From a virus: 40,389 nucleotides of DNA. Under the pieces are notes generated by a model, which did not search any database, was not told the origin of the DNA, and was given only the letters and a program-made list of their open reading frames with translations. Numbering within the stretch: position 1 is the stretch's first letter; every line of letters begins with the position of its first letter. The position numbers and the translations under genes were made by a program. Where the stretch lies: positions 1-40,389 of the IMG/VR virus record IMGVR_UViG_3300030106_002871. One strand, written 5' to 3'. Positions 3,547 through 38,268 of the stretch are shown piece by piece.

Positions 3547-4571
3547 TGTCATATACTAATGGTCTCGATAATCCTGAACTTTTCTTTCAATGTAAAATCT
3601 ATACTGGAAATGGTAGCACAAATGCTATCACTTTTGATGGCGATGAAAATATGCAACCTGATTTTATTTGGATTAAAGATAGAGGAAGGAATGGTTATAA
3701 TCATGTCTTAAATGATTCTGTAAGAGGTGTAACAAAATATGTTAGATCAAATATAACTAATGATGAGGACAATTATACAGATGCAATGACTTCATTTGAT
3801 AGTAATGGGTTTACTTTAGGTGCAGATAGTCAAAATGGAGAACATAATGTTAATAGTCAAAGCTATGTAGCTTGGTGTTGGAAAAAATCGCCAACAGCAG
3901 GATTTGATATAGTTGCTTATACTGGAACTGGAAATAACGCTACTGCAAATATTTCTCACTCTTTATCAGCAGTTCCTGAATTTATGTGGATTAAATGTAG
4001 AACATCAAATAAAAATAATACTAATTATCATGTAAGTTTAGGAAATACTAAAAGTTTTTATATGGATGAAACTAATGCTGCATCAACATCTTATGATTAT
4101 TGGGCAGACACAACTCCAACTTCAAGTGTCTTTACAGTAAAAGATGATGGTAGTTATGATGAAGTTAATGCGGCTAGTGATCAAACTTTTATAGCTTGGT
4201 TATGGTCTGGCAAACAAAGTTTTAGTAAGCTAGGTTCATACATAGGAAACGGAAATGATGATGGTGCATTTGTTTATACAGGATTCCGTCCAGCTTTTGT
4301 TATGACAAAAAGAACTGATGGCATAAGTCATTGGCTTATGAAGGATAATAAAAGAGATCCATTTAATGTTTCAGATACTTTATTAGTAGCAAATGATAGT
4401 GACTCAGAGAGTAATTGGGGAACTGGTAGAAAAATTGATTTTTTAAGTAATGGATTTAAAGCTAGAAGTACATCAACAGGATTAAATGTAAGTGGATCAT
4501 CCTACATCTACATGGCTTTCGCAGAATCCCCCTTCGTAAATTCTAAGGGTATACCAACAAATGCAAGATAA
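3546..4571 (+). CDS. DUF7483-like tail protein
   Basis: 341 aa built from repeated segments of the type PDFIWIKDRG...HVLNDSVRG... and PEFMWIKCRTSNK, with VAWCWKK and IAWLWSGKQ at matching places. This W-I-K/A-W-x-W pattern is that of the DUF7483 tail domain family as I recall it; it appears twice to three times in series here. The preceding LamG/SPRY protein ends at its start, and the pair recurs together in marine phages. Likely a side-fibre or tip protein; exact role unknown. Confidence 0.65.
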   Translation: MSYTNGLDNPELFFQCKIYTGNGSTNAITFDGDENMQPDFIWIKDRGRNGYNHVLNDSVRGVTKYVRSNITNDEDNYTDAMTSFDSNGFTLGADSQNGEHNVNSQSYVAWCWKKSPTAGFDIVAYTGTGNNATANISHSLSAVPEFMWIKCRTSNKNNTNYHVSLGNTKSFYMDETNAASTSYDYWADTTPTSSVFTVKDDGSYDEVNAASDQTFIAWLWSGKQSFSKLGSYIGNGNDDGAFVYTGFRPAFVMTKRTDGISHWLMKDNKRDPFNVSDTLLVANDSDSESNWGTGRKIDFLSNGFKARSTSTGLNVSGSSYIYMAFAESPFVNSKGIPTNAR

Positions 4572-34503: not shown

Positions 34504-34532
34504 GTTATAACATACTAGATTGCGTATGTCAA
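34504..34532 (-). promoter_or_regulatory. Sigma70-type promoter overlapping a terminator
   Basis: Minus strand TTGACA (34532-34527), 17 bp, TATAAC (34509-34504); start near 34497. The spacer forms an inverted repeat ACATAC/GTATGT. It would feed the folded leader and the 154-aa gene. Confidence 0.6.
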
Positions 34533-34790
34533 TTAGTTACCCTCTTGGTTTTCTTTCATATTATTTGGATTACTAGGTAATGATATTGTCATTCCGTGTT
34601 TAATCCAATCTTCTGAATCACTATTCCAATAAGTCCAACACTCTTTAAGTTTTCTCAAAGCGTGTTGTTGTTCTTGGGTGGTTTCTTTTTGTGTCCTTAT
34701 AAGATACAAAAGTTTTACCAACCAATCTTCTGTGGAAGTTTTCCATTTAAGATTCCAAGTGGTATCTATTTGTGGTTTATTATCCAACAT
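34533..34790 (-). CDS. 85-aa early protein, Trp-rich
   Basis: Strong AAGGAG site, own promoter 26 bp upstream and own terminator downstream, so it is a one-gene unit. NLKWKTSTEDWLVKLLYLIRTQKETTQEQQHALRKLKECWTYWNSDSEDW: helical with seven Trp. The first genes expressed by phages often encode such small host-modifying proteins, but no homology is recognised. Confidence 0.6.
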   Translation of the reverse strand: MLDNKPQIDTTWNLKWKTSTEDWLVKLLYLIRTQKETTQEQQHALRKLKECWTYWNSDSEDWIKHGMTISLPSNPNNMKENQEGN

Positions 34791-34815
34791 ATATGTTCTC
34801 CTTGTTGAGAACTAT

Positions 34816-34844
34816 AATATATTACAATTATTTTTCTGAGTCAA
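34816..34844 (-). promoter_or_regulatory. Sigma70-type promoter of the 85-aa gene
   Basis: Minus strand TTGACT (34844-34839), 17 bp, TATATT (34821-34816). Start near 34809, then AAGGAG and ATG at 34790. The -35 lies in the 3' end of the preceding 55-aa frame. Confidence 0.65.
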
Positions 34845-34997: not shown

Positions 34998-35027
34998 AAA
35001 AAAGGCTAGGCGATTACTCGCCTAACC
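34998..35027 (-). terminator. Intrinsic terminator ending a small RNA
   Basis: 10-bp stem (35018-35027 with 35004-35013, one G-U), GTAA loop on the minus strand, then six T. It ends the folded RNA that begins near 35162. Confidence 0.75.
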
Positions 35028-35162
35028 AATGTGGCTTAAACCCGTAACTTGTTATTATATAAGCCCTTTTATTAAGTTTGGTTATACTTAATTTAACAGG
35101 TAATTACTATTTGGGGTAGCCTCTTGACTAGCAAGGCGGACATAAAATGTCCTGTGCATCCC
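34998..35162 (-). ncRNA. Candidate small RNA with own promoter and terminator
   Basis: About 165 nt, no open frame. It begins 7 bp after a TTGACA-17-TATATT promoter and ends in an intrinsic terminator. On the minus strand the 5' part folds as GGACA/TGTCC and GCCTTG/CAAGAGGC hairpins closed by TGGG/CCCA; then ATTAAGT/ACTTAAT (7 bp) and GGCTTA/TAAGCC (6 bp) hairpins; then the terminator. It matches no RNA family I know. Confidence 0.6.
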
Positions 35163-35168
35163 ATATTT

Positions 35169-35197
35169 AATATATATTAAAAAAACCCCCATGTCAA
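35169..35197 (-). promoter_or_regulatory. Sigma70-type promoter fused to a terminator
   Basis: Minus strand TTGACA (35197-35192), 17 bp, TATATT (35174-35169). The -35 box is in the loop and 3' arm of the terminator at 35179-35213, whose T-run forms most of the spacer. Drives the small RNA. Confidence 0.7.
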
Positions 35198-35213
35198 ATT
35201 AATGACATGAGGG
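35179..35213 (-). terminator. Intrinsic terminator containing a -35 box
   Basis: 11-bp stem (35203-35213 with 35186-35196, one G-U), TTAATT loop on the minus strand, then seven T. It ends the two-gene unit starting at 35635. Confidence 0.85.
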
Positions 35214-35229
35214 CTAACCTTAGAGGGAA

Positions 35230-35430
35230 CTAAGTCTTTAAAGTTTTAATTAGTATTTCAACTTTATGGTCTAATAAATGATTATGATGACTAGCTTTTA
35301 ATTCTTCTAAACTATAACTTTTTGATGCCGCTAGTGGTATTTTATCATCATTATTTTTTTGTTTGTGTATTTTTGCTTTGTTACTAGCCCTTACAAAATC
35401 TAGGGCATTTTGGTCGTTAGGGTTTGGCAT
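35230..35430 (-). CDS. 66-aa early protein, unknown
   Basis: MPNPNDQNALDFVRASNKAK... then KIPLAASKSYSLEELKASHHNHLLDHKVEILIKTL. Basic, helical, His-rich. Overlaps the gene before it by 14 nt; terminator follows 17 bp after the stop. No family. Confidence 0.5.
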   Translation of the reverse strand: MPNPNDQNALDFVRASNKAKIHKQKNNDDKIPLAASKSYSLEELKASHHNHLLDHKVEILIKTLKT

Positions 35431-35635
35431 AGTATCCTCTTTCCATTAGATATTTATAAGCAGATTTTTTTGTGCGTGGTAAATCAGGAAACCATTTTTT
35501 TAGTACATTGATTATGCTACCACGATACATTCGTAATCCCATTCTGCTAGTTGCTTCTGTTTCTAAAGCAATCAAAGCAATATTCTTACGAAAATTATCT
35601 CGCTGCTCATCATTATTAAAAGTAATCATTGTCAT
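35417..35635 (-). CDS. 72-aa early protein, unknown
   Basis: AAGGAG before ATG 35635. MITFNNDEQRDNFRKNIALIALETEATSRMGLRMYRGSIINVLKKWFPDLPRTKKSAYKYLMERGYY. Helical, basic C-terminal half, possible DNA-binding helix (SIINVLKKWFPDLPRTKKSAYKYL), not certain. First gene of a two-gene unit with its own promoter and terminator. Confidence 0.55.
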   Translation of the reverse strand: MTMITFNNDEQRDNFRKNIALIALETEATSRMGLRMYRGSIINVLKKWFPDLPRTKKSAYKYLMERGYYAKP

Positions 35636-35659: not shown

Positions 35660-35688
35660 ATAGTATAAAAAAAAAGGGGTTGTGTCAA
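35660..35688 (-). promoter_or_regulatory. Sigma70-type promoter fused to a terminator
   Basis: Minus strand TTGACA (35688-35683), 17 bp, TACTAT (35665-35660); TATACT at 35667-35662 gives a 15-bp spacer instead. The -35 is in the 3' arm of the terminator at 35667-35703. Drives the 72- and 66-aa genes. Confidence 0.65.
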
Positions 35689-35703
35689 ATTAACACAACC
35701 CCT
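35667..35703 (-). terminator. Intrinsic terminator containing a -35 box
   Basis: 11-bp perfect stem (35693-35703 with 35675-35685), loop of 7, nine T on the minus strand. It ends the RNA with the folded segment at 35708-35812. Confidence 0.85.
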
Positions 35704-35816: not shown

Positions 35817-35885
35817 TTAAGCAACAAAACTGATTAATAATCCAAGCATTAACCACACCGTTGCTACATACATCATACTCTTCAT
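35817..35885 (-). CDS. 22-aa membrane micropeptide
   Basis: Frame MKSMMYVATVWLMLGLLISF plus VA. AAAGGA lies 6 bases before the ATG and a consensus promoter 30 bp upstream. One membrane helix, toxin-like in shape. Stop is 4 bases before the folded segment, so it may serve as a leader peptide for that RNA. Confidence 0.5.
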   Translation of the reverse strand: MKSMMYVATVWLMLGLLISFVA

Positions 35886-37799: not shown

Positions 37800-38200
37800 A
37801 AACTTGTTATATTATAACGTAACACTTGGTTATTTATGTAGTTTCCAGGGTTTACATTAGTTACGAAATTTTACGATACCCTTAGTAATTCCAAGCGGTA
37901 ACCACCAAGGCAACCCCAAAAAAATCTAAAGCAAATTAAATAACAACTAAGTAAATACTAAGGAAACCCCAAGGGGTAGGCAGGGTGCCACCCCCCTCTC
38001 CCATATAGTATATATAGCATTGCCAGAAAATACCCAGTGTCCCTGTAAACCACTATTGGGCTATATTTTAGGGTACAATATTCCGACAATATTCCCTGGA
38101 ATACCCTAAGAGAGAATGTAAATTTACCCTGAGTATATGTGTATATGCCCCCTGGTGGGTTCCTATGAACATTATACACCCTATATTCAATTTTGTCTAT
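37800..38200. other. Structured, repeat-containing noncoding region (origin or packaging-site candidate)
   Basis: No gene is supported in this ~400-bp stretch. It contains the palindrome GTTATATTATAAC (37806-37818), CCCCAAGGGG (37967-37976), GGCA/TGCC (37979-37989), an 8-bp stem TTAGGGTA/TACCCTAA (38068-38075/38102-38109) and, inside it, two direct copies of ACAATATTCC (38075-38084, 38086-38095). GC-rich patches alternate with AT runs. Just upstream of the terminase genes, so a pac/cos site or origin is possible; a folded RNA is the alternative. Confidence 0.45.
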
Positions 38201-38239
38201 TGACATACTGTCGCATTATGCATTATTTAAAAATAAAAC

Positions 38240-38268
38240 TTGACAAAATTGATATTTATCCCTATAAT
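38240..38268 (+). promoter_or_regulatory. Perfect-consensus sigma70 promoter of the packaging/late genes
   Basis: TTGACA (38240-38245), 17 bp, TATAAT (38263-38268). Start near 38275. A second TTGACA at 38200-38205 has only a weak -10. The terminase small subunit gene begins ~140 bp downstream. Confidence 0.75.

Follow-up and report, generated by a model that had tools for sequence, protein, structure and literature searches.

Terminator hairpins that carry the −35 box of the next promoter: putative fused terminator-promoters in a marine phage and other viruses

Two Modules Among Small Phage Genes

The window, that is, the whole stretch of DNA analyzed here, covers 40,389 of the 47,468 bp in a virus record from a marine phage. 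Among its products are a DNA polymerase of family A and a DnaB-like helicase. Pelagibacter phage HTVC033P is the only named DNA match in the region of the modules. Here, two intrinsic-terminator hairpins with stems of 12–13 bp and energies near −20 kcal/mol are situated on the minus strand, at 35214–35179 (module 1) and 35703–35667 (module 2) (Table 1). In both, a stable G+C-rich hairpin abuts a T-run on the same strand, and near-consensus −35 and −10 boxes are spaced by 17 bp, within the 16–18 bp of a sigma-70-type promoter. The spacer of module 1, tgggggtttttttaata, is 17 bp long and includes the T-run. The promoters score 11/12 (module 1) and 10/12 (module 2) over the −35 and −10 boxes, and transcripts would be expected to start near 35162 and 35653, respectively. 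The first-pass annotation had described module 1 as an 11-bp stem with seven T, in which TTGACA is followed after exactly 17 bp by TATATT, and had noted its recurrence with the same loop at 35660–35703. Both descriptions are correct, and TTAATTTGACA is common to the two modules. Two other terminators on this strand (35027–34998 and 34501–34468) lack a fusion of this type. An Rfam covariance-model scan of the window at E ≤ 1 gave no relevant match.

Table 1. Features of the two modules and the adjoining small units (z-scores of hairpins were computed against dinucleotide shuffles).
Feature	Position	Strand	Description
Module 1 hairpin and T7	35179–35214	−	GCCCTCATGTCATTAATTTGACATGGGGGT; stem 12 bp; −20.0 kcal/mol; z −6.3
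Module 1 −35 box, hairpin loop/3′ arm	35192–35197	−	TTGACA, 6/6; conserved in L028, L029, and L124
Module 1 −10 box, 17 bp past −35	35169–35174	−	TATATT, 5/6
Module 2 hairpin and T9	35667–35703	−	AGGGGTTGTGTTAATTTGACACAACCCCT; stem 13 bp; −19.6 kcal/mol; z −6.5
Module 2 −35 box, 3′ arm	35683–35688	−	TTGACA, 6/6; kept in L028 and L029 despite altered stem or −10
Module 2 −10 box, 17 bp past −35	35660–35665	−	TACTAT, 4/6
72-aa ORF, at the head of the unit presumably started by module 2	35417–35635	−	Ribosome-binding site aaggag; homologs at 24 IMG/VR loci
66-aa ORF, last gene ahead of module 1	35230–35430	−	Homologs in L028 and L029 at 95% identity
Putative non-coding RNA, presumably started by module 1 and closed by the ordinary terminator 35027–34998	34998–35162	−	No long ORF; fold more stable than in shuffles, z −3.0
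22-aa hydrophobic peptide ORF, in the unit presumably ended by module 2	35817–35885	−	MKSMMYVATVWLMLGLLISFVA; HTVC033P and several contigs have similar short hydrophobic ORFs immediately ahead of fused modules

From this arrangement, module 2 would close the unit with the 22-aa ORF and open a two-gene unit (35635–35417 and 35430–35230). Module 1 would close the two-gene unit and open a putative non-coding RNA, whose transcript would be ~165 nt long and for which a blast search against phages found no match.

ORFs of the 22-aa type lie 20–50 nt ahead of fused modules in HTVC033P (position 529 of locus L290) and in L005 (3395), L028 (3859), L029 (4858), and L031 (2592). The HTVC033P version of the peptide is MQTTLATFFWATIILLVIASLS, which is missing from the annotation of that phage. 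The non-coding DNA that separates module 2 from the 22-aa ORF (35816–35705, minus strand) is absent in L029; it has GTGGGG and CTCCCCAC near its opposite ends, which could pair. At the start of the putative non-coding RNA, ~50 nt (35162–35110, minus strand; GGGATGCACAGGACATTTTATGTCCGCC...GGCTACCCC) could fold as a junction. These ~50 nt are absent in L028 and L029, in which the non-coding stretch is otherwise near-identical and has a different insert of ~140 nt near the terminator.

Recurrence of the Module Across Viruses

A search of related phages for TTGACA within terminators, as had been proposed on first inspection, found it in relatives, in HTVC033P, and in many IMG/VR matches. Five contigs fetched via the two small proteins (L004, L005, L006, L028, and L029) have the module with other stems, such as CCCTGTGTATGCTTGACATACATGGGGTTTTTTTATATACT. 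At the position of module 2 in L028, the stem is recoded and the −35 box and the 17 bp are unchanged; one close relative has TAATCT where the −10 box of module 2 is TACTAT. The cultured pelagiphage HTVC033P has the same architecture with different stems, its T-runs lying at 641–647 and 1274–1280.

IMG/VR was scanned with the pattern TTGACA-N2-6-SSS-T6-N1-5-TATANT, which leaves the spacer free (12–20 bp) and requires no stem. At least 120 loci were found, and the spacer was exactly 17 bp in 101 of the 123 matches listed; a narrow pattern with fixed 17 bp gave 9 loci. With the scrambled hexamer TTAGCA, 20 loci were found across the whole IMG/VR collection. In RNAfold predictions, a hairpin abutting the T-run and enclosing the hexamer was present in 81 of the 109 distinct viral matches listed (27% in shuffled sequences), compared with 3/17 for the scrambled hexamer (shuffled 14%) and 35 of the 119 matches listed from bacterial genomes searched identically (shuffled 22%). 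A stricter single-hairpin criterion gave 78/108 viral vs. 18/119 bacterial matches (p = 7e-19), and after clustering 54/78 vs. 16/115 (p = 3e-15), again among the matches listed. When the T-run was replaced by an A-run in the pattern for viral promoters, the same computation found a hairpin in 7 of the 103 matches listed (7%), vs. 77/108 for the T-run. Overall, a hairpin encloses the −35 box in 71–74% of viral T-run matches and 13–29% of bacterial matches, these rates being those of samples among the matches listed and not of censuses. Bacterial and viral promoters alike can thus have T-rich or A-rich spacers, but what distinguishes the viral T-run promoters is the terminator hairpin. Crude ORF calling placed 11 of 78 hairpin modules inside an ORF of at least 100 aa; outside long ORFs, a stop codon lies a median of 43 nt before TTGACA and a start codon a median of 29 nt past the −10 box.

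Is the Overlap Due to Chance?

In AT-rich DNA, real terminators could match TTGACA and a −10 box by coincidence, and chance indeed yields many promoter-like sites in this region (82, compared with 110 in shuffles). Terminators were called with one uniform finder, those with a promoter of at least 10/12 beginning inside the hairpin were counted as fused, and permuted −35 hexamers served as the null. In the window and the rest of the record, 2 of 8 terminator hairpins are fused, against a mean of 0.02 and a maximum of 1 for the 179 other permutations of TTGACA. HTVC033P likewise has 2/8 (permutations: mean 0.02, maximum 2), the loci found by protein homology 5/32 (mean 0.04, maximum 4), and Syn19 3/17, one of them via the weak hexamer TGGACC. 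The excess over the permuted hexamers, the 20 loci of the scrambled-hexamer scan vs. at least 120 with TTGACA, the predominance of the 17-bp spacing among the viral matches listed, and the conservation of the module in cyanophages (see below) make coincidence extremely unlikely; on the permuted- and scrambled-hexamer nulls, a chance origin was rejected.

By the same criterion, no fused element was found in lambda (0/11 terminators), M13, phiX174, or SPO1 1–50 kb (0/18), which had been picked for its many small early genes, indicating that the element is not universal. The central terminator/gene III region of M13, considered as a possible precedent, has no fused promoter by the criterion used here.

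The Hairpin is Likely Selected as RNA

Several modules have TGTCA..TGACA dyads over the −35 box, and the palindrome might thus be a DNA operator over the promoter, a repressor or activator site, rather than a terminator. Such a dyad should be strand-symmetric and independent of the T-run. However, in strand-neutral dyads the stem mismatches of the viral set comprise 20 G·T and no A·C, compared with 2 and 5, respectively, in the bacterial set. Because G·T is tolerated solely in RNA of the T-run strand, this asymmetry, explicable only by such RNA, implies that the hairpin is selected as RNA. The stem sequences also vary among the modules of one phage, and the hairpin is rare with an A-run (7% of the matches listed). 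An operator is thus a very improbable reading of the palindrome. The mismatches and the compensatory changes in cyanophages support selection of the hairpin as RNA of the T-run strand, as expected of a terminator.

Conservation in Cyanophages

A homologous module is present in 282 phage records, nearly all of them Synechococcus phages. Where annotated, the module is followed by a small gene that lies either upstream of psbA or after hsp20. The first-pass annotation had named loss of the −35 box from a preserved stem as evidence against a dual element; among 18 sampled records, 16 retain TTGAC(A/G) (TTGACA 12, TTGACG 4) and the others have TTAACG and TTGAAA, and the spacing is 17 bp in 17/18. 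In the outer stem, 4 pairs show double changes across 14 distinct rows, and the covariation score is 0.215, vs. 0.094 in shuffles (0/500 as high), a signal that collapses on sliding. Of the 14 rows, four derive from the scan with the TTGACA pattern, which biases them for the −35 box; for the cultured phages, the blast query used to find the rows included the module. In the sampled records the stem varies compensatorily while TTGACR and the 17 bp mostly stay.

Fused Terminator-Promoters and Their Possible Function

We consider it very probable that the modules are fused terminator-promoters between small phage genes that are read by the host RNA polymerase. The architecture is real and recurrent, and looks to have evolved repeatedly, in many unrelated phages. 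Sequence comparison strongly supports the structural part of the earlier proposal, in which one stretch of DNA serves as both stop and start and recurs as a phage element: the support comes from independent stems, the fixed 17 bp, an RNA-strand-specific hairpin, compensatory changes, and the contrast with matched promoter controls.

Polymerase leaving the upstream small gene would make a G+C-rich hairpin followed by U7–U9 and free its RNA. The same DNA would be a near-consensus sigma-70-type promoter, with its −35 box in the hairpin loop/3′ arm, the T-run as spacer, and the −10 box directly beyond the T-run. By this layout, the next transcript would begin ~20 nt past the end of the first, without the hairpin. 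Both activities would presumably run in vivo with the host RNA polymerase, and the element would take up little space while dividing small genes into independent units. The insulation of genes and competition of termination with initiation, both suggested at first reading, are plausible.

The modules resemble intrinsic terminators in the G+C-rich hairpin followed by a T-run, in strand specificity, and in their position between co-directional genes, but the loop/3′ arm doubles as a −35 box and the T-run as a promoter spacer. They resemble sigma-70-type promoters in the TTGACA-17 bp-TATNNT layout, shortly followed by a start codon or the start of an RNA, except that the −35 box sits in the terminator that ends the unit before it. 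As at promoter A and the gene H terminator of phiX174, promoter and terminator share phage DNA. In phiX174, however, the hairpin is at the start site (annotated start 3962, hairpin 3956–3980) and the −35 box is upstream of it, whereas here the hairpin contains the −35 box and the start would lie past the T-run. An overlap of the phiX174 type was thus rejected for modules 1 and 2, whose expected starts lie beyond the T-run.

According to two reports, Escherichia coli polymerase usually remains on its template once intrinsic termination has occurred, and reinitiation at nearby promoters can follow (PMC6978380; PMC6978322); in vitro, it followed 37% of terminations, or 55% with added sigma-70 (PMC6978380). 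The fused modules are comparable, in that a polymerase left on the DNA could restart at a nearby promoter. In the accessible parts of these reports, however, the evidence is in vitro, with RNA-seq for antisense starts, the elements are separate, and a natural fused element is not described. The accessible part of a cyanomyovirus comparison likewise predicts promoters and terminators separately (PMC3037559). A phrase search of the open-access literature found no paper describing the fused element as a class. The parts are ordinary, and their fusion as a conserved class appears to be undescribed in the open-access literature searched by phrase.

Release inside the next promoter allows occlusion, hand-over, or plain space economy. 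It is tentatively suggested that polymerase still on the DNA after termination is favored to restart at the fused promoter, although we hold this to be unlikely. Still more doubtful is a general, repeatedly evolved phage punctuation in which the terminating polymerase passes straight to the next promoter; if it existed, chains of tiny transcription units could fire sequentially without antitermination. Pure economy, in which both parts are real and overlap merely from the shortness of phage intergenic space, with no regulatory effect, departs from the fused terminator-promoter in function only, and we rate its chances as even. The intergenic distances are short and each part is ordinary by itself; the recurrence of the exact geometry with unrelated stems speaks against it without being decisive, as any promoter needs the 17 bp and geometry alone is no proof of coupling.

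As a regulatory part, the fused terminator-promoter would be compact, and it is apparently shared by many unrelated phages. In annotation, it is easy to discard a −35 box that lies within a terminator, and the small intervening units, such as the possible non-coding RNA and the 22-aa peptide, get missed. The culturable HTVC033P, Syn19, and S-RIM2 provide natural sites at which to test polymerase restart, so far studied mainly in vitro, and the element is a potential ready-made stop-start part for synthetic circuits.

A Second Overlap Geometry and Other Features

In a second overlap geometry, TTGACA-17-TATAAC/TATATT is directly followed by a conserved hairpin, AAAGGGTAGTCAGCGAGAGTTGGCTATCCTTTTTTG. 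Such sites lie in the window at 34532–34467 (minus strand), in HTVC033P (L290) at ~2065–2130, and in L004 (5823), L028 (5323), L029 (5984), and L031 (3761). The expected start would be within the 5′ arm of the hairpin, as for promoter A of phiX174; upstream transcripts would end there and new ones escape.

Divergent promoters are found at 38171–38268, with a perfect TTGACA-17-TATAAT at 38240 on the plus strand and TAGACA-17-TATAAT at 38199 on the minus strand. On the minus strand at 34812–34795, directly past a promoter-like TTGACT-17-TATATT at 34844, a small hairpin (GTTCTC-AACAAG-GAGAAC) covers the likely ribosome-binding site of the ORF at 34790–34533.
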